Positions 8,552 through 31,483 of a DNA stretch of 64,000 nucleotides are shown in pieces (the stretch's first letter is position 1; every line of letters begins with the position of its first letter). The DNA comes from a virus, in IMG/VR virus record IMGVR_UViG_3300043395_001986, positions 1 to 64,000 of that record. One strand, written 5' to 3'. A model generated the notes under the pieces. It was given only the letters and a program-made list of their open reading frames with translations, ran no database searches and was not told the DNA's origin. A program made the position numbers and the translations under genes.

Positions 8552-9112
8552 ATGGAAAGGTTACATACATTTAAAAATTTTCTTTCAAAAGAAGAATGTT
8601 ATTCTATTTTAGAAAAATATAAAGTAGAATTAAATTTAAAACCAGCCGAGATTCAATTCAATGGCCAAAAAGTTGTTAACGATAAAAGAAAATCATCCAT
8701 AGCCTTTATAGATAATATAAATGAAATAGATGAACGATTAAAAGATACTTTAAAAAATCTCATACAATTAAAAGGATATGAACTTACTGGATTAGGTCCG
8801 TATCAATTTACTGAATATAAAACTGGAGAATACTATGCTTGGCATACGGATTCTTCAAATGAGCCGGAATATAAAGATAGATTCTGTTCTATTGTCATTC
8901 AACTAAATGATGAATATAGTGGTGGATATTTACAATTAATAGATGAAAGTGAGGATAATATATATCAATGCGATCATGGAGTCGGTACAATGTATATATT
9001 TTATTCAAACATAAAACATAGAGTTATACCAGTAACAGAAGGAGTTAGATATTCCCTAGTTAATTGGGTTTCATTGAAAAAATTAAATGATTTCAAAAAA
9101 ACATTAATATAA
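8552..9112 (+). CDS. 2OG-Fe(II) dioxygenase
   Basis: The double-stranded beta-helix signature is complete: His98-x-Asp100 (AWHTD) and His156 (IKHRV) for iron, and Arg166 (GVRYSL) for 2-oxoglutarate. SGGYLQL fits the usual strand between them. The enzyme would hydroxylate an unknown substrate using O2 and 2-oxoglutarate. It opens a run of genes joined by TAATG/ATGA overlaps: oxygenase, sulfotransferase, halogenase, oxygenase, sulfotransferase. The protein ends in KKTLI, shared with its neighbours. Confidence 0.85.
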   Translation: MERLHTFKNFLSKEECYSILEKYKVELNLKPAEIQFNGQKVVNDKRKSSIAFIDNINEIDERLKDTLKNLIQLKGYELTGLGPYQFTEYKTGEYYAWHTDSSNEPEYKDRFCSIVIQLNDEYSGGYLQLIDESEDNIYQCDHGVGTMYIFYSNIKHRVIPVTEGVRYSLVNWVSLKKLNDFKKTLI

Positions 9113-9879
9113 TGCTTATTGATGATAAATTTATATTTGTTTCATTGCCAAGAAGAGCATCAACTTCATTTCATTATTCGTGTTTACTAAATGGATTGAA
9201 TGTAAAAAATATAGGCCCAGTTGATTGGAGTATAGCAAATTCTAAAATTGATTTTAAAAATATAAATGAATCAAATATAATGGATTATATAGCTCATGGA
9301 CATGAGAGAATTGTTGAAGAAAAAATGATATACGGAAACATATATCCAATCATTGCAATATATAGAAATAGACATGAATCATTTTATTCTTATTTTAAAC
9401 ATTTAATTTACGATTTAAACAGAGCAGGATTCACAAAAATAGCTAAACATCTTTCAGAATTACAAACAAAAGATTTATTTTTTTTTAAAACAAATGATTT
9501 AAAATCATCAACATCACGTAGTGAAGTAATAATAAATTATTTATATGATAATAAATTAATTGAAAAAAAAAGTTATAAAAAATCAAAAAATCAAATTTTA
9601 AATACGGACGAATATGTCATAAATGTGATAGATATACTACTGGCTCCTACATCTCATTGGCATAATAACGATACTGATATAATTTGGTTTGATATAAATA
9701 ATTTATCAAAATTAGAAGAATGGGTATCAAACATTACAAATAAGCCATTTAAATTAAAAAAATTAAATTCAAATAATAAAATTAAATGTAATTTAGAATT
9801 AAACGAAGAATTTATTTATTATTATAATAATGTTTATGATTACTATGATTTACCTAAAAATAAAAAAACATTAATATAA
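9112..9879 (+). CDS. PAPS sulfotransferase-like protein
   Basis: DKFIFVSLPRRASTSFHYSC near the N-terminus is a 5'-phosphosulfate-binding loop, and IIAIYRNRHESFYS is the 3'-phosphate loop. It is a clear paralogue of the 11725 protein: both have SPTSHWHN or APTSHWHN, IIWFDI and a closing D-x-PKN-x-K. It would move sulfate from PAPS to a hydroxyl on an unknown acceptor. The ATG overlaps the preceding stop (TAATG). It ends in NKKTLI. Confidence 0.75.
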   Translation: MLIDDKFIFVSLPRRASTSFHYSCLLNGLNVKNIGPVDWSIANSKIDFKNINESNIMDYIAHGHERIVEEKMIYGNIYPIIAIYRNRHESFYSYFKHLIYDLNRAGFTKIAKHLSELQTKDLFFFKTNDLKSSTSRSEVIINYLYDNKLIEKKSYKKSKNQILNTDEYVINVIDILLAPTSHWHNNDTDIIWFDINNLSKLEEWVSNITNKPFKLKKLNSNNKIKCNLELNEEFIYYYNNVYDYYDLPKNKKTLI

Positions 9880-11087
9880 TGAAAAATATTGTTATAGTAG
9901 GTGGTGGAACAGCTGGTTGGCTATCTGCATTTTTTTTAAAAAAAAATTATAAAGATTGTAATATATGTTTAATAGAAAGTTCTAAAATTGGAATATTAGG
10001 AGCAGGCGAAGGTGCAACACCAAATCTCCAATCAATGCTTATTCAAGGATTTGGGTTTAATGAGGAAGATTTTTTAAAGAAAATAAATGGAACAAAAAAA
10101 TATGGAATTAATTTTACTAATTGGAGTAGGGATTTAAATAAAAATTTTGTTCATGGGTTTGAAGAAGATGGGACTGAAAACGAAATATATTCTTATCATT
10201 TTAATGCAAGATTGTTTTCAGAATATTTAAAAAATAAAAATATAGAAAAAGGTGTTCGGCACATAGATGCAGAAATTGATAAATTTGTAAAAAAAAATAA
10301 TAAAATAAAAAAAATTATTTTAAAAAATGGAGAAGAAGTAAAAACAGATTTTGTAATAGATTGTTCCGGATTTGCAAGATTAATTATAGGAAATGAATAT
10401 AATACAAAATGGAATTCATATGAAGATGAATTATTAGTTAATTCCGCTATACCATTTTTTATAAAAGAAGAAAATAATAATATAAATCAAAAAACAACAG
10501 CAGAAGCAATAGATTGGGGCTGGATGTGGAAAATCCCACTCAAAGATAGATGGGGATGTGGCTATCTGTATAATGATAACATGATAGATGATGATTTTAT
10601 TCAAAAGGAAATTTATAGATTATATGGTGATAAAAATATACAAATCAATAAAAAAATAAAATTCAAACCGGGTTCATATGAAGATGTATGGGTAGAAAAT
10701 TGTGTAGCAATTGGATTATCTAGTGGGTTTTTAGAACCATTAGAAGCAACTTCTATAATGACAATTGTATTTCAATTAAGACAATTATCTAATAATATTT
10801 TCGATGATTCAAAAAGAAATGAATACAATTATAATGTAAAGCAATTTAATTTTCAAAATATGATGTTTATACGACATCATTATAATTGTGATAGATGTGA
10901 TACTGAATTTTGGCGAACATATAAGTCCAAAAAAATACCAAATATTTTACAAGAAATTTATGATTCATTTTATACTAAAAAAACATTATCTGATATTTTT
11001 AAAACAGAGTATTTAGCTTTTACAAAAAAACAATATATACATATATATAATAATAATTTTAGTAAAAATAAAAAAACACTAATATGA
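9879..11087 (+). CDS. Flavin-dependent (tryptophan-type) halogenase
   Basis: The FAD-binding GGGTAGW (8-14) and the family motif WxWxIP (residues 215-220, WMWKIP) are present. Candidate catalytic lysines are in NGTKKYG (Lys73/74), where PrnA has Lys79. SSGFLEPLEATSI matches the FAD/chloride region. At 402 residues it is shorter than bacterial tryptophan halogenases (about 500-540), so part of the substrate-binding domain is reduced; the substrate may be a peptide or other aromatic. Halogenase activity needs reduced FAD from a reductase not seen here. TAATG coupling on both sides. It ends in NKKTLI. Confidence 0.85.
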   Translation: MKNIVIVGGGTAGWLSAFFLKKNYKDCNICLIESSKIGILGAGEGATPNLQSMLIQGFGFNEEDFLKKINGTKKYGINFTNWSRDLNKNFVHGFEEDGTENEIYSYHFNARLFSEYLKNKNIEKGVRHIDAEIDKFVKKNNKIKKIILKNGEEVKTDFVIDCSGFARLIIGNEYNTKWNSYEDELLVNSAIPFFIKEENNNINQKTTAEAIDWGWMWKIPLKDRWGCGYLYNDNMIDDDFIQKEIYRLYGDKNIQINKKIKFKPGSYEDVWVENCVAIGLSSGFLEPLEATSIMTIVFQLRQLSNNIFDDSKRNEYNYNVKQFNFQNMMFIRHHYNCDRCDTEFWRTYKSKKIPNILQEIYDSFYTKKTLSDIFKTEYLAFTKKQYIHIYNNNFSKNKKTLI

Positions 11088-11725
11088 CTTTTCTAGAAGA
11101 AATAAAATTTAGTCCTACTTTATCAATATGGAAATCGAAATTTGATTTAACAAATAGAAATAAATTAATACAAGAATGCGAAGAACATATAAAAAACTTA
11201 CCGGACGTTTGGAATGATGGATATGGTTACTATATGAATGATAGTTTAAAATATAAAGGATATGTTGATATACCAATAGAAAAAGAACTAGATTCAATTA
11301 TGTTGACAGCAATTAATGAATGTATTGAGATATACTCTGAAAAATTTAATGAAATTAAAGCAGATATATGGATAAATGTTGTTAGAGCAAAAAATCCAAT
11401 ACAAAAAAACTATAAATCAAATGGAGGTTTAATTTTTCATAATCATGTTGATTTAAATATTAAAAATAAATTAACACCACCATTATATACTTTTGTTTGT
11501 TATATACAAATGCCAGATAATCTAACCAATGATGATGGTGTATTATTTATGGAAGATGTTGATAAATCAGTTTTTTCAATATTACCAAAAGATGGTGATA
11601 TATTGATTATGAAAGGTGATTTACCGCATGTTCCAAACTATGCACCAAATTCTACAAAAGATAGAATTGTATTAGCAGGTAGTGTTAGAATGGATTTTTC
11701 TAAATTAAATAAAAGTTTAATATAA
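11084..11725 (+). CDS. 2OG-Fe(II) dioxygenase
   Basis: The iron ligands are His121-x-Asp123 (NHVDL) and His182 (LPHVPN), and Arg194 (KDRIVL) would bind 2-oxoglutarate. The layout, with a long N-terminal lead and G-D-I-L-I-M-x-G-D-L-P-H, matches the putative 2OG-Fe(II) oxygenase group often found in marine phages. The ATGA overlap with the halogenase suggests a common substrate or assembly. It ends in LNKSLI. Confidence 0.8.
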   Translation: MTFLEEIKFSPTLSIWKSKFDLTNRNKLIQECEEHIKNLPDVWNDGYGYYMNDSLKYKGYVDIPIEKELDSIMLTAINECIEIYSEKFNEIKADIWINVVRAKNPIQKNYKSNGGLIFHNHVDLNIKNKLTPPLYTFVCYIQMPDNLTNDDGVLFMEDVDKSVFSILPKDGDILIMKGDLPHVPNYAPNSTKDRIVLAGSVRMDFSKLNKSLI

Positions 11726-12450
11726 TGTTAGTAGAAAATAAATTTATATACCTTAATTTACCAAGATGCGCATCTACATCATTTCATATAGCATGCCTTA
11801 AATACGAATTGGATATTAAATATTATGATGATATTATTCATACATTAAATCCACCAAAATTAAATAAAAATGATAACAATGAAATAATAGCTGATAATTT
11901 ATCACATACACATGAAAAGTTAATTAATTTGCAAAAAAAATTTGGTTATGATTTACCTGTTATTGCTGTAAAAAGGAATTCATATGAAAGGTATATATCA
12001 TTATGGAAACATATAATAGATGAACTTTATAGAATAGGTGAATTTGAAACTTTTAATATATTTAAGTCTTTAAATGTTGATGAATTATTATCATATACAG
12101 AAATTGATATATCATCAAATGAGAAAAAATATGAGTTTATAAAAAAATTCTTTAAAAGATACAACATTCCCAGAACCGATGCATATGTAACCGCAATGAT
12201 ATATATGATTATGAGTCCAACTTCACATTGGCATAATCATAATAAATCAATTATATGGTTTGATATACAAAATATAAAAGAATTAGAAAATTGGGTATCT
12301 GAAAAATTAAGTTTTGATTTTAAATTGGAAAAAACAAATTCAAGTCAACACTTTGAATGTAATATAATAAATGATGAATATTTTAAAAAAAAGTATGATT
12401 CTATATATAAAAATTATGATAACCCAAAAAATATTAAATCGTTAATATAA
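11725..12450 (+). CDS. PAPS sulfotransferase-like protein, paralogue of the 9112 gene
   Basis: NKFIYLNLPRCASTSFHIAC is the phosphosulfate loop and VIAVKRNSYERYISLW the 3'-phosphate loop. Similarity to the 9112 protein runs end to end, so oxygenase-plus-sulfotransferase appears duplicated on the two sides of the halogenase. The acceptor is unknown. It ends in NIKSLI. Confidence 0.75.
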   Translation: MLVENKFIYLNLPRCASTSFHIACLKYELDIKYYDDIIHTLNPPKLNKNDNNEIIADNLSHTHEKLINLQKKFGYDLPVIAVKRNSYERYISLWKHIIDELYRIGEFETFNIFKSLNVDELLSYTEIDISSNEKKYEFIKKFFKRYNIPRTDAYVTAMIYMIMSPTSHWHNHNKSIIWFDIQNIKELENWVSEKLSFDFKLEKTNSSQHFECNIINDEYFKKKYDSIYKNYDNPKNIKSLI

Positions 12451-12451
12451 T

Positions 12452-12739
12452 ATGATAAATTTTAAAGAAATATTTATTGCTTGGAAAACATCATTTAATC
12501 CAAGCGAATCGGAATCAAAAATTGCAAAAGATAGATTAGAAATTTGTATAAGTTGTGAATATAAAAAAGAAGTTTTTGAAAAAAAAGAATGGTCGGCAAT
12601 ATGTGGTAAATGTGGATGTCCATTAATGAAAAAAGTATTTTCAAAAGAAATTAACCCATGTCCAATGGGATATTGGATGGAATCGGATAATAAAAATGGA
12701 TTAACTATTCAAACAAAAAATAAAAAATCGTTTTTATAA
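12452..12739 (+). CDS. Small six-cysteine protein (zinc-ribbon or rubredoxin-like)
   Basis: Cysteines at 32, 35, 51, 54, 56 and 70 form CxxC...CxxCxC...CP, a metal-binding layout. The pattern of C-G-K-C-G-C-P-L followed by N-P-C-P-x-G-x-W recalls a short protein family widespread in T4-like phages of aquatic bacteria. It starts 2 nt after the sulfotransferase stop and ends in NKKSFL, a variant of the neighbours' tail. It may be an electron carrier for the halogenase or radical-SAM enzyme, but this is only suggested by position. Confidence 0.65.
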   Translation: MINFKEIFIAWKTSFNPSESESKIAKDRLEICISCEYKKEVFEKKEWSAICGKCGCPLMKKVFSKEINPCPMGYWMESDNKNGLTIQTKNKKSFL

Positions 12740-12747
12740 ACTTAACA

Positions 12748-12755
12748 TATTTATA
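12748..12755 (+). promoter_or_regulatory. TATTTATA box, candidate late promoter
   Basis: An exact TATTTATA lies 18 nt before the ATG at 12774. It would give the Hint-like gene a transcript separate from the upstream enzyme run. Confidence 0.45.
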
Positions 12756-12773
12756 AATGTAAATAAAAAAATT

Positions 12774-14267
12774 ATGAAAGGTACAATAATAGGAAGTGAT
12801 TTATTACAAAAAGAAGATTCGGTAAAAGTCATTGAAATAAATACAAATACAACCATTTACAATGATGGTGCTGAATTTTTAGACTATACGGCACTATTTT
12901 CGGTTTTGGTAGCAAATAATATAAATGAATTACATTTTATATACACAGCTGGAAATAGTTATCTACCAACCAATGCAGCATCATTTGTATTTGAAGATAA
13001 ATTAAAAGAAAAATGTTTAGAACACAATATAGAATATTATCCTTATATAGTTCCTGCTAATTCAATTACAATACCATATGTTGAAGATGCATCAAATAAA
13101 TTTATTTTAAGACAAGCATTTGATACTACCGCATTAGTTGATGAAACATATTGTGCAGATAAATTTGAATTTTTAAATTTAATGAGTGGTTCAAATTATA
13201 TACCAAATACATTTTTTAATGATTCCGATTTAGGATTTGATACAATAAATTCTATAAATTTAGAAAATCCAAATGAACCAAATTATATTATAAAATCTAA
13301 AAGTCCAAGATACGATTCAAAAAACTATCCTGCAATATACGGAATAGAAACAGAAAATGAACTAATTGATTTAAAAAATTCTCTTCCTTCTGACCATTTA
13401 ATTCAAGAATTTATTTATGATGATTTAAATATTATAGATGGTAAATGGGCTGTTATAAGAAGTATTGATATTATATATGGAAACGAATTAGATGTTATTA
13501 ATATGGGAGGATATACCCATTCTACCAGAATACCTTTAAGTTTTGCATCAAATGAATTTGTAGAAGGTACTAAAAAATATAATCAAAAGACAAGATACAA
13601 ATATATTAATAAACAATTAGGAAATTTTGCAACAATAGATTATCACGTAGATAGTGATACAATGATATTAGATTATACAGGTTCGTTAGTAGATGTTGAT
13701 ACTATTCAATTGGGAACATTTGTAAAATCAGTAGATTTCACAGATTTAAGTGGTAGTTCAATACAACATAACATATCTGATATTACAACGTTTGGCTGGG
13801 ATGGTACTTTAGAAAAAACAATTGAAACATTAACGGATATAACATCATCATTGGTTGGATTATCTTCTGCTTCTGTTGATACTATTTTTGTAAAAATAAC
13901 ATTAGAAAATGGATTAAATTGGGATGATTCACCATCTGCAACTTACTATATTGAAGAGTCTGGCTCATTATCAACAAGATGGGAAAAGATTAATAATATG
14001 TATATTGGTGATAAATTGATTGTAAAAAACAATACCACAAATCAATTAGAAACGATAGAAATAACTAATTTAGAAATGGTATATGCACAGAAAACAATAT
14101 ATGATTTAGACTTTGAAGATTCTGATTTGTTTTTAGTTGATATTGGAGATGGATTATTTGGTATAATGCACAACAGCTGTTGGTGTTGTGGTAACCCATG
14201 CGGACACTGGTGTTGTTCACAATATTGCCCAATCTGCTACCAAAACTTACCTCCCGGATGTAAATAA
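12774..14267 (+). CDS. ATP-grasp-like/Hint-like fusion with Cys-rich C-terminal tail
   Basis: The N-terminal half (about 1-290) resembles an ATP-grasp protein: an alpha/beta lead, then NYIIKSKSPRYDSKNYPAIY as a possible ATP-binding lysine strand, and HLIQEFIYDD. About residues 330-467 resemble the C-terminal part of a Hint/intein domain: RWEKINNMYIGDKLIV, then IYDLDFEDSDLFLV and GIMHNSC. His466-Asn467-Ser468 is the classic intein C-terminal junction. The last 30 residues (468-497) hold nine cysteines. No block-A Cys or TxxH block is visible, so full splicing is unlikely; Asn cyclisation could release the tail. Neighbours are radical-SAM and oxygenase genes. Confidence 0.6.
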   Translation: MKGTIIGSDLLQKEDSVKVIEINTNTTIYNDGAEFLDYTALFSVLVANNINELHFIYTAGNSYLPTNAASFVFEDKLKEKCLEHNIEYYPYIVPANSITIPYVEDASNKFILRQAFDTTALVDETYCADKFEFLNLMSGSNYIPNTFFNDSDLGFDTINSINLENPNEPNYIIKSKSPRYDSKNYPAIYGIETENELIDLKNSLPSDHLIQEFIYDDLNIIDGKWAVIRSIDIIYGNELDVINMGGYTHSTRIPLSFASNEFVEGTKKYNQKTRYKYINKQLGNFATIDYHVDSDTMILDYTGSLVDVDTIQLGTFVKSVDFTDLSGSSIQHNISDITTFGWDGTLEKTIETLTDITSSLVGLSSASVDTIFVKITLENGLNWDDSPSATYYIEESGSLSTRWEKINNMYIGDKLIVKNNTTNQLETIEITNLEMVYAQKTIYDLDFEDSDLFLVDIGDGLFGIMHNSCWCCGNPCGHWCCSQYCPICYQNLPPGCK

Positions 14268-14284
14268 TTAAATTAAAAAATATT

Positions 14285-14422
14285 ATGGCAAATAAAAGAA
14301 TAGAGAGACCATCTCAAATAATCAAAGTAGATATAAAACCTATATCAAACGAATTAAAGACAAAAATAGCAACGGCATTTCAAACAATTGTATCAAAAAT
14401 TAAAGAAAAACATTTATCTTAA
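14285..14422 (+). CDS. Very small protein, 45 aa
   Basis: I read this by eye: MANKRIERPSQIIKVDIKPI, then a helical, lysine-rich end (KTKIATAFQTIVSKIKEKHLS). The start lies 17 nt after the preceding stop and the gene is followed by a possible weak promoter (TATTTTTG at 14437-14444). The function is unknown. Confidence 0.45.
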   Translation: MANKRIERPSQIIKVDIKPISNELKTKIATAFQTIVSKIKEKHLS

Positions 14423-14454
14423 TTTTGATAATATTGTATTTTTGATAAATTGTT

Positions 14455-15003
14455 ATGTTAACCAACTTTTCACACACTGCTCTTTTTACTTCCGATGAAA
14501 TAAACAAAATATTAAATCATATGGGAGAAACATCGGATACACTATATCCGGTTTATATGGATGGGAATTGGAATGATATTGGTTGTAAAATGCAAAGTAG
14601 CGATTTGGAATGGAATGATGAGATTAATTGGTTTTTTATAAAATTATCAAAATGGATTGATAGTTTACAATTAGGTATAAAATTAGTAAATCCCCCACAT
14701 GCTGTATTTAGAAAGTATGTAGTTGGGGATTTTTTTATTAAACATATAGACCAACCTCCCAACCCAAAACCAATAAGATATATGTCGGTTTGTATTCAAC
14801 TTTCAAACGAATCGGAATATGAAGGTGGAAATGTATATGTTTATGCAAAAAATAATAAACAATTAATACCAAAAACAATAGGATATACTTACGCATTTGG
14901 AATAAAAGTTCCACATGAAGTAACACCGATTACAAACGGAATACGAAAATCGCTGACTATATTTGTAAGTGAAAATCATATTAAAAGAACTAATTTATTA
15001 TAG
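14455..15003 (+). CDS. 2OG-Fe(II) dioxygenase
   Basis: His97-x-Asp99 (IKHIDQ), His154 (VPHEV) and Arg164 (GIRKSL) form the complete iron/2-oxoglutarate site, with YEGGNVYVY between. It directly abuts the radical-SAM gene (stop TAG, then ATG) and ends in KRTNLL, a looser form of the shared tail. The substrate is unknown; position suggests it acts in the same pathway as the radical-SAM protein. Confidence 0.8.
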   Translation: MLTNFSHTALFTSDEINKILNHMGETSDTLYPVYMDGNWNDIGCKMQSSDLEWNDEINWFFIKLSKWIDSLQLGIKLVNPPHAVFRKYVVGDFFIKHIDQPPNPKPIRYMSVCIQLSNESEYEGGNVYVYAKNNKQLIPKTIGYTYAFGIKVPHEVTPITNGIRKSLTIFVSENHIKRTNLL

Positions 15004-16077
15004 ATGTCATTTGATTTAAAAGATTATATTTGCACAATTCCTTTTAAAAGATTAGAAATACACCCAGAAGCGTATGCATTATGTTGTCCTGAATGGTTAA
15101 AAAAACGTTTACCAAAAGGAATTGATAAACTGCCGGATGTATGGAATTCCGAGGAATCTACTGAAATAAGGAAATCAATAGTAGATGGTAGTTATAAATA
15201 CTGCAGTCACATTACGTGTCCACATTTAAGCGAATTAAAAAATTTAAAAAATAAAAATGTATCACCTATAAAACATAGAAAGGAATTAGATGATGATTTT
15301 TGGGATGTATATGATGAAGTAACTGGTAGAATGAAAATAGGCCCAAGAACTATTCACATGAGTTTTGACCTAACATGTAATTATAAATGTCCATCTTGTA
15401 GGGTTGAAATGTTTGTAGAAAATTCAGAAGGTATAAAAAGAATCAATACTACAATTGAGGAAATGGAAAAATTATTTGCAAAAGATTTAGAATTAATATA
15501 CACCATAGGTAGTGGTGACCCATTTGCATCGGTTGCATTTAGAAACTATTTAAGAAATTTTGACCCTAAAAAATATCCAAAATTAAAAACTATAATGTTG
15601 CACACAAATGCTTCTCTTTGGAATAAAAAAATGTGGGATAGTATGCCAAACATACACAAATATGTAACAACTTGTGAAATATCAATTGATGCGGGTACAA
15701 AACATACATACGAAAATGTAACAAGATTAGGTGGTAATTGGGAAAATCTAATGGATAATTTAAATTTTATATCAACAATACCTAATTTAAAAGTTATTAG
15801 AACATCCTTTGTTGTACAACAGGCAAATTATACAGAAATGGAAATATTTTTACAAAAAATGAGAAATATTTTTACAAAAAATGGAAAAGTATATTTTGGT
15901 AGAGTAACAAAATGGGGACACATTTCTGAATCTACTTTTAAATTTTTAGATGTTGCGAATCCTGAGCATCCTGAACATCAGCTATTTTTAAATGAATTAA
16001 AAAAGGTCTCACACAATCCATATGTATTACATAATATGTACGAATTATCTCAATCAAAAAATTTAAATTTGATATAA
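15004..16077 (+). CDS. Radical SAM protein
   Basis: Cys125-x3-Cys129-x2-Cys132 (CNYKCPSC) would bind the [4Fe-4S] cluster and SAM. GSGDPFAS follows where the SAM-binding GGEP motif normally lies. The N-terminal 60 residues hold further cysteines (CTIPF, ALCCPEW, YKYCSHITCPH), placing a SPASM-like accessory region before rather than after the core. Such proteins modify peptides or small molecules by radical chemistry. It lies between two oxygenases and near the Cys-rich Hint-like protein. It ends in SKNLNLI. Confidence 0.8.
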   Translation: MSFDLKDYICTIPFKRLEIHPEAYALCCPEWLKKRLPKGIDKLPDVWNSEESTEIRKSIVDGSYKYCSHITCPHLSELKNLKNKNVSPIKHRKELDDDFWDVYDEVTGRMKIGPRTIHMSFDLTCNYKCPSCRVEMFVENSEGIKRINTTIEEMEKLFAKDLELIYTIGSGDPFASVAFRNYLRNFDPKKYPKLKTIMLHTNASLWNKKMWDSMPNIHKYVTTCEISIDAGTKHTYENVTRLGGNWENLMDNLNFISTIPNLKVIRTSFVVQQANYTEMEIFLQKMRNIFTKNGKVYFGRVTKWGHISESTFKFLDVANPEHPEHQLFLNELKKVSHNPYVLHNMYELSQSKNLNLI

Positions 16078-16078
16078 G

Positions 16079-16603
16079 ATGATATGGATAAGTGAAAATT
16101 TTAATAGACTATCGAATAGTGAATTAGAATTTCTAAAAAATAAGTGCAAGAATTTTATTTTAACAGAATCTCCAATATTATATAATAATGGTTTAACTAA
16201 AAATTATTATCATAGATATAAATTTAATGTTGATGATTTAGAATTTAAAGAAATAATTAATAAAATAACGGAACATATAAAAAAAGAAACAAATCACAAT
16301 GAGATTGAATTATGGACTATCCAAATAAATAAAATATTCGAAGGGTCTAATGAGGAAGATGAATTGCATGTAGATAGTTGTGATTTAACTTTTATATTGT
16401 ATCTAAATAATGAGTTTGAAGGTGGTGAGTTTGAATATATAAATCAAGATAAAAAAATTATAAAAATAAAACCAAAAGAAAATTTTTCTATAATATCAAA
16501 CGATAAATTAATACACAGAGTATTACCAGTAAGTAGTGGAGAAAGATTTAGTTTGGTTATGTTTTTTAATATAGGTAAAAAAAATAAATTAACTTTAATT
16601 TAG
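16079..16603 (+). CDS. 2OG-Fe(II) dioxygenase
   Basis: His97-x-Asp99 (LHVDS), His146 (LIHRVLP) and Arg156 (GERFSL) complete the active site, with FEGGEFEY between. It starts 1 nt after the radical-SAM stop. It ends in KNKLTLI, the shared tail. The substrate is unknown. Confidence 0.8.
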   Translation: MIWISENFNRLSNSELEFLKNKCKNFILTESPILYNNGLTKNYYHRYKFNVDDLEFKEIINKITEHIKKETNHNEIELWTIQINKIFEGSNEEDELHVDSCDLTFILYLNNEFEGGEFEYINQDKKIIKIKPKENFSIISNDKLIHRVLPVSSGERFSLVMFFNIGKKNKLTLI

Positions 16604-16612
16604 TTGTTTATT

Positions 16613-17131
16613 ATGAAAATTTTAATAATTTCATTACCTAGAACTGGTTCAACATCGTTAATGAAACTAACAGCAAAAAAACATAATTTAAATTATATAC
16701 ACGAGCCGTTTAATAAAATATTTTACGAAAAATATAAAAATTATGATTGGATATCTAATGATAATTATGTTATAAAATCTATTATAGACCAATTACCAGA
16801 AGGTGAGACGGACATAATATCTTACTGGGAAAAGTTTCATAAAAATTTTGATAAAATCATATTACTTTCAAGAAAAGATTTGGTTGATTGTTCCAAAAGT
16901 TTAGCATATGCAGCATACCACACCGAAAAAGCATATTGGTCAAACAAATACATATGGGAATTAACACCAAATTTAGAAGAAACTTATAGATATATTATAT
17001 TTTTGAATAAATTAATGTTTGATATAAAAAATAGATTAAATTTAGATATAATATATTATGAAGATATTTTTGATATAAATTCAGATGAAAGATTAAGAAT
17101 TAATAAAAATATAAAAAAAAAGTTATTATAA
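16613..17131 (+). CDS. Sulfotransferase-like protein
   Basis: The frame opens at a TTG at 16604, but the ATG at 16613 gives MKILIISLPRTGSTSL, a typical phosphosulfate loop at the very N-terminus. IILLSRKDLVDCSKSL fits the 3'-phosphate loop. Unlike the 9112 and 11725 proteins it lacks the SHWHN segment, so it belongs to another branch. It ends in NIKKKLL. It closes the enzyme island before a 134-nt gap. Confidence 0.7.
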   Translation: MKILIISLPRTGSTSLMKLTAKKHNLNYIHEPFNKIFYEKYKNYDWISNDNYVIKSIIDQLPEGETDIISYWEKFHKNFDKIILLSRKDLVDCSKSLAYAAYHTEKAYWSNKYIWELTPNLEETYRYIIFLNKLMFDIKNRLNLDIIYYEDIFDINSDERLRINKNIKKKLL

Positions 17132-17264: not shown

Positions 17265-17792
17265 ATGCTAAAACAAATTGTTACAATTTTAATTCTTTTT
17301 TCATTCCTTTCTTGTAAAAAAGAAGAACCAATAATAGTAAAAAAAGAAAATGTCTATAAAATAGAAATAGACGGGAGATTACCATTTGATGTAAATGGGT
17401 ATTATCATCTTAAATTGGATTCTACAAAAAACCAAACAATTCATAGAATTTCTGGATCATTAAGATTAAATGGAGAAATACCATTTCCTTCTGAAAAAAT
17501 CGAATGGAATAGTAATTTGTATTGGTATATAGTTCAAGGAGATACAATTGCTAGGATAACAAAAACATATATAAATTATTTCACAGGTAATGTTACTGTC
17601 GTATCTTTACCACCATTAGTTTCAAATAAAACCGAATTAGTACCAACAATAAATTCAGCTAGTTATAGTGGATATGGTGTTGGTGATATCAATACCGTCA
17701 TTGCACCCATATATAAAATGAAAGGTGATACAATGATAATTAAAGCATCAATCGAAAAAGAATTTAAAATAACAAAAATAGTATTAGAATGA
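17265..17792 (+). CDS. Putative lipoprotein
   Basis: A short N-terminal hydrophobic signal (MLKQIVTILILFSFLSC) ends in a lipobox with Cys17, followed by KKEEP. This fits signal peptidase II processing and membrane anchoring. The 159-residue mature part looks beta-rich and is not recognised. A host-like promoter precedes it, and its stop overlaps the APS kinase start (ATGA), so the two are probably co-expressed. Phage lipoproteins often block superinfection, but no motif proves that here. Confidence 0.65.
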   Translation: MLKQIVTILILFSFLSCKKEEPIIVKKENVYKIEIDGRLPFDVNGYYHLKLDSTKNQTIHRISGSLRLNGEIPFPSEKIEWNSNLYWYIVQGDTIARITKTYINYFTGNVTVVSLPPLVSNKTELVPTINSASYSGYGVGDINTVIAPIYKMKGDTMIIKASIEKEFKITKIVLE

Positions 17793-18229
17793 TATATTGG
17801 TTTACAGGTCAGCCGGCGGCGGGAAAAACAACATTAGCGAACTGGTTAGCAGCATCGTTTCCTACACAAAAAGTAAAAATTGTAGATGGAGATGATATTA
17901 GAGAAATTTTTGATAACAAAGATTATTCAGAAGCCGGAAGAAGAAAGAACATAGATTTAGCACAAAAGATTGCACAATTCTTACACAAAAAAGGTGAGAT
18001 AGCAATAGTGTCATTAGTTTCTCCATACAGAGACCAAAGAGAAGAATTTAAACAAAAAATGGGAAATGATTTGGTAGAAATATATGTACATTGTTTTACG
18101 GATAGAGGTAGGACACATTTTCACGTTCCTAATTACGAACCGCCATTGGAAAATTTTATTGATGTAGATACTACCAATGATAAAGAATTTCAATCTATAC
18201 AAAAAATAAGAGAAAAATTAGGTTTATAA
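17789..18229 (+). CDS. cysC: Adenylylsulfate (APS) kinase
   Basis: The P-loop GQPAAGKT (7-14) and the family motif DGDDIR (33-38) are present, followed by a segment containing SLVSPYRDQREEF and FTDRG. The enzyme converts APS and ATP to PAPS, the donor for sulfotransferases, in the cytoplasm. At 146 residues it is shorter than the usual 180-200, with the C-terminal part reduced. The phage carries at least four sulfotransferase-like genes, so the most economical role is PAPS supply. The next genes include DUF2061, often linked with sulfate assimilation in Bacteroidota. Confidence 0.85.
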   Translation: MIYWFTGQPAAGKTTLANWLAASFPTQKVKIVDGDDIREIFDNKDYSEAGRRKNIDLAQKIAQFLHKKGEIAIVSLVSPYRDQREEFKQKMGNDLVEIYVHCFTDRGRTHFHVPNYEPPLENFIDVDTTNDKEFQSIQKIREKLGL

Positions 18230-18253
18230 TAAAAAATTTAGTAAATTAGACTT

Positions 18254-18664
18254 ATGAAAAAATACGCATTATTCATCGGAAGATGGCAAACATGGCACAA
18301 AGGACATGAGTGGTTAATCAATCAACAATTAGAAAAAGGAAAGAATTGTTGGGTAGCAATTAGAGATGTGCAAGTGGATGAAAACAATCCAAAATCGGCA
18401 CAACAAGTTTTAAAAGAATTATCAAACGAACCATTCTTTACAAACAATTTTGATAAAATTTTATTATCAATAATACCAGATATTGAAAGTGTAAACTATG
18501 GTAGAGCGGTTGGATATGAGGTGATATATCACGAACCACCAAAAGAAATCGAACAAATTAGTGGAACTGCAATTAGAAAGAAATACATCGACTCTAATGG
18601 AGATGTGATTGTTTACAATATAGATACCGAAGATGATAGTAGAAAGAAAGAGACACATAGCTAA
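18254..18664 (+). CDS. Nucleotidyltransferase (cytidylyltransferase-like fold)
   Basis: The FIGRWQTWHKGHEWL segment carries the HxGH motif, and ISGTAIRKK carries the ISxTxxR-type motif of the NMN/phosphopantetheine adenylyltransferase superfamily. It transfers a nucleotide from ATP or CTP to a small phosphorylated substrate. NMN adenylyltransferase is one option. A role linked to sulfate activation is suggested only by its place between APS kinase and DUF2061. The substrate cannot be read from the sequence. Confidence 0.7.
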   Translation: MKKYALFIGRWQTWHKGHEWLINQQLEKGKNCWVAIRDVQVDENNPKSAQQVLKELSNEPFFTNNFDKILLSIIPDIESVNYGRAVGYEVIYHEPPKEIEQISGTAIRKKYIDSNGDVIVYNIDTEDDSRKKETHS

Positions 18665-29758: not shown

Positions 29759-31483
29759 ATGAAAATTTTAGGGATTTCTGCTTTTTATCACGATTCTGCA
29801 GCTGCTTTAATTGTAGACGGTAAAATAGTAGCAGCAGTAGAAGAAGAACGATTTAGTGGTAAAAAACACGATCCTTCATTCCCATATAAATCCATAGATT
29901 GGATTTTAAAATCAAATAATTTAAAAATATCAGATATTGATAAAATAGCCTGGTACGAATGCCCAACTCTTAAAAAAGATAGAATACGAAAAACTTTTTG
30001 GAAAAGATTTCCAAAATCTTTAGGTATTATTTTTGATTTTTTAACTTGGAAAAAACGAACAGACCCAATCCCTCATTTAAAAAAAATAGGATGGGATAAA
30101 AATGTACATTTTGTAGAGCATCATATTTCACATTTGGCATATTCTTTTTTAACATCTAATTTTGAAAAAGCAGTTTTAATATCAGTTGATGGTGTTGGTG
30201 AATGGGATACTGCTGTATATGGAGTTGGTGTAAATAATACATATGTTCAACCATTAGAAAGGGTATCATATCCAAATTCATTGGGCATGTTTTACGCAAC
30301 ACTTACTTCTTTTTTGGGTTTTAAACCAAATAGTGGTGAGTATAAAGTAATGGGGTTAGCGGCATTTGGTAGTACAAAGGATAAATTTAAAAAAGAAATG
30401 GAAAAATTGATATGGTGGAATAATAAAACCAATCAATTCGAAATGAATATGAAATATTTTTCATATGAGTACTCAAATAAAAAAATGTATACATTTGAAT
30501 TAGCAAAATTATTTAATATATCACCAAGAGTGCCTGAAAGTGAGTTAGAACAAATACATAAAGATATTGCATTTTCTCTTCAATCTCACTATGAAAGAAT
30601 ATTTTTTAAATTTTTGAATTATGCATATTCAAAAACACCATATGATAATTTATGTTTAAGTGGTGGTTGTGCATACAACGGAACTGCTAATGGAAAAATT
30701 TTAGAAAAAACAAAATTTAAAAATGTTTATATCCCACCAGCACCATCTGATTCTGGAAGTGCAATTGGTGCGGCATTGAGTATCTATTACAAATATAAAA
30801 ATGTAAAAATTAGAGATTACAATAATGTAAGTGCATATTTAGGACCAAAATACACAGATGCAGATTACGAACTTTCTATTTTCTACCATCATCATAATAA
30901 TGTACAAAAAATAGATAGAAAAAAAGTAAAAAAATATTTAAAAGAATCTGACTTAATAGAAGATGTATCAACTTATTTAAAAGAAGGAAAGATTATAGGC
31001 TGGTTTCAGGGTAGAACTGAATTTGGTGCGAGAGCATTGGGTAATCGTTCTATATTGGCAAATCCTTGTATTCCTGATATAAAACCAAAAGTTAATAAAG
31101 TAATTAAAAAGAGAGAAGGATTTAGACCATTTGCACCGATGGTTACATCGCAAGATGCGGATAAATATTTCCAAATGAATGGACAAAAAGTTCCATATAT
31201 GAATCAGGTTGTTAAAGTAAAAGATTCTTTCATAGCTAATTTACCTTCAATTACTCACGTAGATGGAACAGCAAGAGTACAAACATTAGAAGAAAAAATA
31301 AATCCATTAATGCATTCTTTATTGAAAAAATTTGAATACAAAAGTGGATATCCAATATTATTAAATACCTCATTTAATCTCCGAGGTCAAACAATGGTAA
31401 ACACACCAAATGAAGCAATTTGGACATTCCAGAATTGCGAAATGGATTATTTAGTTATTGGTAACTATATCATATCTAAATAA
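29759..31483 (+). CDS. Carbamoyltransferase (NodU/CmcH family)
   Basis: The full two-domain family is present: N-terminal FYHDSAAALIVDG, EERFSGKKHD, HHISHLAYSF and SVDGVGEWDTA, and C-terminal GRTEFGARALGNRSILANP and FRPFAPMV. At 574 residues it is normal length. It uses carbamoyl phosphate and ATP to carbamoylate a hydroxyl, often on a sugar. It lies between the sigma factor and the structural block. Confidence 0.92.
   Translation: MKILGISAFYHDSAAALIVDGKIVAAVEEERFSGKKHDPSFPYKSIDWILKSNNLKISDIDKIAWYECPTLKKDRIRKTFWKRFPKSLGIIFDFLTWKKRTDPIPHLKKIGWDKNVHFVEHHISHLAYSFLTSNFEKAVLISVDGVGEWDTAVYGVGVNNTYVQPLERVSYPNSLGMFYATLTSFLGFKPNSGEYKVMGLAAFGSTKDKFKKEMEKLIWWNNKTNQFEMNMKYFSYEYSNKKMYTFELAKLFNISPRVPESELEQIHKDIAFSLQSHYERIFFKFLNYAYSKTPYDNLCLSGGCAYNGTANGKILEKTKFKNVYIPPAPSDSGSAIGAALSIYYKYKNVKIRDYNNVSAYLGPKYTDADYELSIFYHHHNNVQKIDRKKVKKYLKESDLIEDVSTYLKEGKIIGWFQGRTEFGARALGNRSILANPCIPDIKPKVNKVIKKREGFRPFAPMVTSQDADKYFQMNGQKVPYMNQVVKVKDSFIANLPSITHVDGTARVQTLEEKINPLMHSLLKKFEYKSGYPILLNTSFNLRGQTMVNTPNEAIWTFQNCEMDYLVIGNYIISK

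Follow-up and report, generated by a model that had tools for sequence, protein, structure and literature searches.

A conserved viral gene cassette encodes an ATP-grasp-like protein with a degenerate Hint domain and a predicted releasable cysteine-rich peptide

Borosins are RiPP precursors fused to an enzyme. Like borosins and the quinohemoprotein maturation system (QhpC/QhpD/QhpG), the viral locus described here places a short C-terminal peptide beside flavin, radical SAM and oxygenase-type genes, and a weak NCBIfam match to QhpG was found; however, its predicted precursor protein is unrelated to theirs in sequence, and release of the peptide would be carried out by a Hint domain and not by a separate protease. 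ATP-grasp ligases, among them the GshA-like 3k1t, RimK and the permuted eukaryotic glutathione synthetase, resemble residues 1-286 of the precursor in the fold tentatively predicted for them, and candidate equivalents of their D-E-N metal triad, Lys, QEF and Arg are conserved in the precursor family. Unlike in these ligases, the order of the elements is apparently permuted, there is no significant sequence match, and a Hint domain and a peptide are fused to the ATP-grasp-like part. A review (PMC7765530) describes A-type BIL domains as making an Asn-dependent cut behind a conserved His-Asn, with no ligation step. They resemble the precursor in the Hint fold, the C-terminal His-Asn and the lack of a required +1 nucleophile, whereas in the precursor cleavage is a prediction, an invariant His stands in place of Cys1, the block-B His is missing, the block-F His is an Asp, and the Hint domain goes undetected by Hint Pfam models. 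In the Tetrahymena BUBL loci, BILs flank released modules (PDB 6y75, 6tmm); similarly, two Hint domains enclose the peptide in six relatives of the precursor, and by sequence the downstream one comes nearest to BUBL BIL2. The differences are that the predicted module is a Cys-rich peptide of 24-32 aa and not ubiquitin-like, that the upstream Hint is degenerate, that the carrier is a phage and not a ciliate, and that the copy analysed here has the upstream Hint only. Finally, cyanophages and pelagiphages (HTVC008M; halogenase VirX1, PDB 6qgm) also have 2OG oxygenase and halogenase families among virion genes, but those checked contain neither an ATP-grasp-Hint protein nor a shared C-terminal tag. 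In Pelagibacter phage HTVC008M (L154), a halogenase, a phytanoyl-CoA dioxygenase and several 2OG oxygenase genes are interspersed among the terminase and neck genes. The locus looks like an undescribed system for a modified peptide or virion part, with both the cutting and its product predicted.

The window, the stretch of 64,000 nucleotides that was analysed, is part of a 237,307-base virus record (IMGVR_UViG_3300043395_001986). An initial annotation of its sequence had described an ATP-grasp-like protein with an intein-type C-terminal layout and a nine-Cys tail. The reading frame was checked in the window, and it contains both RWEKINNMYIGDKLIV, IYDLDFEDSDLFLV and His466-Asn467-Ser468 in the layout described and the 30-residue, nine-Cys tail after Ser468. 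The parts of the protein are:

12774-14267, + strand: precursor ORF, 497 aa, containing RWEKINNMYIGDKLIV, IYDLDFEDSDLFLV and His466-Asn467-Ser468, then 30 residues with nine Cys
12774-13631, + strand: N-terminal ATP-grasp-like domain, residues 1-286, apparently circularly permuted (AlphaFold2, Foldseek, weak RimK matches)
13638-14174, + strand: degenerate Hint/intein-fold domain, residues 289-467 (AlphaFold2 model, Foldseek, hhalign)
13644-13646, + strand: His291 codon, at the catalytic Cys1 position (His in 81/81)
14169-14174, + strand: His466-Asn467, block-G equivalent, with predicted cleavage after Asn467 (81/81 sequences)
14175-14264, + strand: Cys-rich peptide SCWCCGNPCGHWCCSQYCPICYQNLPPGCK, residues 468-497, predicted released product (Cys conservation)

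A single-sequence scan of IMG/VR, with MHNSCWCC among its seeds, yielded 87 relatives, 80 of which were kept; a second scan with an N-domain profile, seeded only from that domain (TYCADKF and [KR]FILRQ[SA][YF]), yielded 132 confirmed stretches. Judged from these comparisons, with relatives in both scans and conserved residues, the precursor protein is genuine and under selection. Its family occurs widely in uncultured viruses (well over 80 contigs), yet the searched isolate phage records and the Pfam and PHROG models lack it. For the precursor, no family of Pfam, PHROG or NCBIfam scored above threshold, no match occurred among 50,697 phage records, and tblastn against isolate phages found no match for the precursor, its 95-aa neighbour, the 2OG-like protein or the sulfotransferase-like protein. 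In bacterial and archaeal species genomes no relative, proviral ones included, was confirmed with the patterns used. In the literature we found nothing equivalent to a phage halogenase/sulfotransferase/2OG cassette, to a phage-encoded RiPP with an ATP-grasp, or to a Hint domain in tail fibres.

Modelled alone, the N-terminal domain reached an AlphaFold2 pLDDT of 86.7, and Foldseek matched it to PDB 3k1t, a GshA-type ATP-grasp ligase (E 4.3e-4, probability 1.00, but TMq 0.44); a search of BFVD returned no significant match. Weak matches to the RimK C-terminal profile were present at residues 1-27 in 8/44 members, and the extreme N-terminal segment GSDLL…EINTN carries the candidate metal triad D9/E21/N23. 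These three residues, together with K174, E212 and R229, are invariant in 44 sequences, and Q211-E212-F213 corresponds to QEF; the metal triad, the nucleotide-binding Lys and the phosphate-binding Arg were assigned by motif and by the weak RimK matches. The ATP-grasp-like N-terminus of the initial annotation gains support from the 3k1t match, with the putative metal motif at the N-terminus and an apparently permuted order. At the level of motifs, a circularly permuted ATP-grasp with a retained active site would explain this most simply. Matches of the N-terminus to Imm26, NusB and L9 were at chance level, below cut-offs, and were rejected.

For residues ~290-467, AlphaFold2 with 29 relatives predicted a confident all-beta domain. 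Foldseek searches with this model retrieved inteins, BILs and hedgehog (probability 1.00, best E 4.5e-8), and the TM scores of 0.73-0.81 (target-normalised) to many inteins and BILs correspond to the Hint superfamily fold, so that the structure prediction without a Hint fold named beforehand as refuting the original proposal did not materialise. Moreover, hhalign against a canonical Hint protein of the same genome gave 92.6% (E 4.7e-7), with IDYHVDSDTMIL of the precursor aligned with NDVYCVSTDTQIQL of the canonical Hint and His291 opposite its catalytic Cys1. We hold with high confidence that this region has a Hint fold with a preserved C-terminal motif.

The N-terminal catalytic blocks are another matter. 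Position 1 of block A, a Cys, Ser or Thr nucleophile in inteins, is His291 here and His in 81/81 sequences, and the equivalent of block B TxxH is SPSA, the His position being C, A, S or T in all 81. The absence of Cys1 and of a TxxH block, already remarked upon for the window protein, is accordingly a property of the whole family, and the block A Cys and intein-like block B of A-type BILs are likewise missing. The block-F His is replaced by an invariant Asp (D451), with small insertions in the F-block. No Pfam Hint model detects the domain, and its direct profile match to an alignment of the second Hint domains found in some relatives is weak (38%). By its sequence, the domain is not assigned as a member of either inteins or BILs, as the defining residues were looked for and are absent; a splicing intein was rejected for want of Cys1, TxxH and a fixed +1 residue. 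With His in the place of Cys1 and no block-B His, the domain could have retained no more of the chemistry than the half that cleaves at the C-terminus, and our claim is that the degenerate Hint would work like the C-terminal half of an intein or BIL. The canonical Hint of the same genome (G000:C1 117851-119512; L082 757-2418) is complete, with Cys1, TETHP and HN-K. An N-terminal region precedes it and a LamG-like lectin domain follows, so that a fibre-like protein is probably split by this Hint.

In the degenerate domain, the C-terminal His-Asn is invariant. His466, Asn467 and Cys469 are identical in 81/81 aligned sequences, and when identity to the window is allowed to fall to 36%, His466-Asn467 is still part of the mere 17 columns, out of 184, that do not vary; the conserved C-terminal His-Asn of A-type BILs is thus present. 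As MHNSCWCC was a seed of the first scan, this conservation might have been a search artefact, which is ruled out by the N-domain-only scan: every complete member that it added keeps the His-Asn and the Cys tail. Conservation of His-Asn-Ser in homologues, on which the original proposal depended, holds for the invariant His-Asn and fails for Ser468, which varies. In 85 distinct tails the +1 residue is S (39), G (13), P (10), T (8), A (7), V (3), N (2), Q (2) or F (1), so the Cys/Ser/Thr of inteins, present as Ser in the window, is in many relatives replaced by G, P, A, V, N, Q or F. Such a free +1 residue is what Asn cyclisation without splicing would allow, and the invariant His-Asn, the lost Cys1 and block B and the free +1 together form the pattern expected if only Asn cyclisation were still selected. 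Cleavage at Asn467 is the best model that we can infer, and we consider C-terminal cleavage with release of the peptide somewhat more probable than not. Counting against it, the block-F His, which assists Asn cyclisation in inteins, is the invariant Asp.

In the peptide, Cys469, Cys476, Cys485 and Cys488 are present in 81/81 sequences and Cys471 in 79/81. There are 78 distinct C-terminal tails, 77 of them complete with 25-33 residues and one ending at a contig end, and their Cys number is nearly always even (six in 70/78, eight in six), the nine of the window being the maximum. The extra pair C472+C481 occurs in seven tails, never singly, and these fall into three lineages on a maximum-likelihood tree; the program counted four changes, one of which was caused by the truncated row L135, which has no tail. 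The even Cys numbers and the joint gain of C472+C481 favour disulfide pairing. This pattern in the sequences suggests that the Cys in the peptide are paired, and the ~30-residue peptide is probably disulfide-bonded. In the AlphaFold2 model the tail has a pLDDT of about 33.

What bounds the peptide provides the main argument for its release. The degenerate Hint precedes it, and what follows it is either a stop codon, another Hint domain or an S74-like one. In six relatives (L075, L080, L164, L202, L207, L236) a complete Hint follows directly, with Cys1, TxxH and a terminal HN plus an end of 2-6 residues, leaving a peptide of 24-32 aa between the two Hint domains. This second Hint matches the PT-HINT and Intein_splicing models, has Tetrahymena BUBL BIL2 and a C. 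thermocellum BIL as its nearest neighbours by sequence, and is BIL-like. In L073 6001-7692 (contig also seen as L254; also L157), a Peptidase_S74-like domain, resembling a type of self-cleaving chaperone, comes after the peptide, the match being weak and below cut-off. The ends of the peptide are therefore repeatedly marked by self-cleaving modules, which points to release.

The precursor gene lies among genes of tailoring type, as the initial annotation had pointed out:

8552-9112, + strand: 2OG-Fe(II) oxygenase, tag KKTLI (2OG-FeII_Oxy_3 4.7e-16)
9112-9879, + strand: sulfotransferase-like protein, tag KKTLI (same family as 11725-12450)
9879-11087, + strand: flavin-dependent Trp halogenase family, tag KKTLI (Trp_halogenase 5e-94)
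11084-11725, + strand: putative 2OG-Fe(II) oxygenase-like protein, tag KSLI (weak 2OG-FeII_Oxy_3, FlmC-like; 62 loci)
11725-12450, + strand: sulfotransferase-like protein, tag KSLI (family in 69/82 loci; Sulfotransfer_2 matches in relatives)
12452-12739, + strand: 95-aa Cys-rich (CxxC...CGKCGC...C) protein, tag KKSFL, directly upstream of the precursor (67/82 loci; phrog_13558, unknown function)
14455-15003, + strand: 2OG-Fe(II) oxygenase, tag TNLL (2OG-FeII_Oxy_3 7.9e-7)
15004-16077, + strand: radical SAM protein, tag LNLI (Radical_SAM; N_Twi_rSAM 6.8e-18, below cut-off)
16079-16603, + strand: 2OG-Fe(II) oxygenase, tag LTLI (2OG-FeII_Oxy_3 1.9e-9)
16604-17131, + strand: sulfotransferase family protein, ending KKLL (Sulfotransfer_1/3 matches in relatives; 71 loci)
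17789-18229, + strand: APS kinase, untagged, adjoining the cassette (APS_kinase 2.6e-20; PDB 7yq0 5.9e-14; family in 24 loci)

This neighbourhood is conserved across about 80 loci. Clustering of 80 relative loci and two views of the window genome (82 loci) found 2OG oxygenases in 80, the halogenase in 44, the 2OG-like protein in 62, SGNH/GDSL proteins in 62, the two sulfotransferase families in 69 and 71, the 95-aa Cys protein in 67, and radical SAM in 25 or GT-like genes; a long fibre-like repeat protein often comes next (cluster 13, 22 loci). The halogenase alignment contains the equivalents of PrnA Lys79 and Glu346, and the sulfotransferases are identified by Sulfotransfer_1/2/3 matches in relatives. 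From its sequence, the APS kinase would supply PAPS. At 17789-18661 the APS kinase is followed by a small HxGH nucleotidyltransferase-like protein, and these are kept beside the cassette in 24-30 loci. The linkage of a ribosomal precursor peptide with modifying enzymes that characterises RiPPs is found in about 80 loci. That the peptide is the substrate of the cassette enzymes seems to us quite possible, falling a little short of probable.

The cassette genes also share a C-terminal tag, ~K-x-[TS]-L-[IL] or close to it, in 10/11 genes (8552-17131) compared with 1/285 other predicted genes. The Fisher p = 1e-16 is descriptive, as the motif was noticed in the same data and then formalised, and the recurrence of the tag in other loci is therefore the stronger argument: it is present in about 80 of them, on non-homologous cassette enzymes, and persists in the deeply diverged L202, L207 and L236. 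Across all loci it is encoded by 172 different 12-mers, the choice among synonymous codons matches that of the gene bodies except that ATA is over-represented, and its frequency is independent of the distance to the next gene. The free synonymous codons and the lack of a distance effect indicate selection at the level of the protein. An explanation by the DNA itself, through a promoter or a ribosome site in the TAATG overlaps, was rejected; in the window a promoter-like pattern is no commoner than expected by chance. SGNH relatives elsewhere in the genome mostly lack the tag, and it is absent from the cyanophage and pelagiphage oxygenase and halogenase genes checked. The precursor is the sole untagged cassette member, its relatives mostly ending in K-[LIV]. 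The tag is possibly a docking or sorting signal.

A self-processing precursor with tailoring by the cassette is the best explanation overall, and we regard it as evenly balanced between right and wrong. Under this model, the Hint fold of the precursor would have lost the N-terminal half of intein chemistry and kept the C-terminal half, with His466 assisting cyclisation of Asn467 so that the chain would be cut with no need for a +1 nucleophile. The predicted cut would free the C-terminal Cys- and aromatic-rich peptide of ~30 residues, whose fold may be held by disulfides or by a metal. Modification of the peptide, the putative substrate, or of the precursor would fall to the 2OG oxygenases, flavin halogenase, sulfotransferases and radical SAM enzyme, PAPS from the adjacent APS kinase would feed the sulfotransferases, the common tag, as a presumed docking signal, would keep the modifying enzymes together, and the ATP-grasp-like domain, if active, would activate a carboxylate in the same pathway. 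A wider version is put forward only tentatively: the phages would have a complete tailoring pathway for ribosomal peptides, new in kind, whose precursor would join a permuted ATP-grasp to a C-cleaving degenerate Hint and a Cys-rich core, and whose non-homologous enzymes (halogenase, 2OG oxygenases, sulfotransferases, radical SAM, SGNH, GT), all bearing one docking tag, would be gathered on a common partner.

Invariant His291 and Asp293 at the old Cys1 site go against the self-processing model, as they suggest a new active or metal site and not mere decay. Also unfavourable to it are the Asp in place of the block-F His with the nearby small insertions, the low pLDDT of the tail, which leaves it in effect unmodelled, the failure of Pfam Hint models to detect the domain, its weak profile match to the second Hint domains, and the absence of the tag from the precursor itself. 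His291, Asp293, Asp451 and His466 are all invariant, and they could form a metal or catalytic site in a repurposed, non-cleaving Hint fold, the tail then being an attached Zn/Fe-S domain of an ATP-grasp-type enzyme. The CxC, CGxxC and CxxC spacing in the tail is typical of metal sites, and a second small protein of Cys4 type is encoded upstream in 67/82 loci. On the other hand, a metal ligand role gives no reason for the invariance of Asn467, a cleavage-competent Hint or an S74-like fusion after the tail would be unexpected for an integral domain, and a fourth Cys pair whose two members were gained together is easier to reconcile with disulfides than with a metal site of fixed composition. We consider this alternative unlikely.

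The precursor might instead be a virion (fibre-associated) part, with the cassette decorating virion proteins or host-facing glycans and the Hint and S74 domains serving assembly-linked processing. Baseplate genes, including one for a baseplate wedge protein, do lie downstream in the window, and the fibre-like repeat protein after many cassettes, the S74-like domain of one relative, the LamG-like lectin domain of the second Hint protein of the genome and the GT-like genes of some loci agree with such a role. The invariant ATP-grasp metal triad suggests an enzyme, and no PHROG structural family matches the precursor; we judge a virion part improbable. Least of all do we expect a non-functional relic, kept as a fold with HN persisting by descent: two of three catalytic blocks are gone, but the place of HN among so few invariant columns at such low identities makes this very improbable.

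If the self-processing reading were true, the precursor would represent a Hint architecture reduced to C-terminal cleavage, releasing a short peptide, and the cassette a pathway for peptide modification encoded by a virus. Shared by about ten unrelated enzymes, the tag strongly and testably points to a hitherto unknown phage signal for targeting or scaffolding and, if it recruits enzymes, would offer a portable tool for assembling pathways. Two further genes of the genome were observed. A Nol-like carbamoyltransferase gene is located at 29759-31483 of the window (PHROG 4.5e-126), and G000:C1 93161-94009 encodes a protein whose C-terminus is rich in Cys and His (…NNCGCNKNHDCGCGGVHKH) and bears no relation to the Cys-rich peptide of the precursor.
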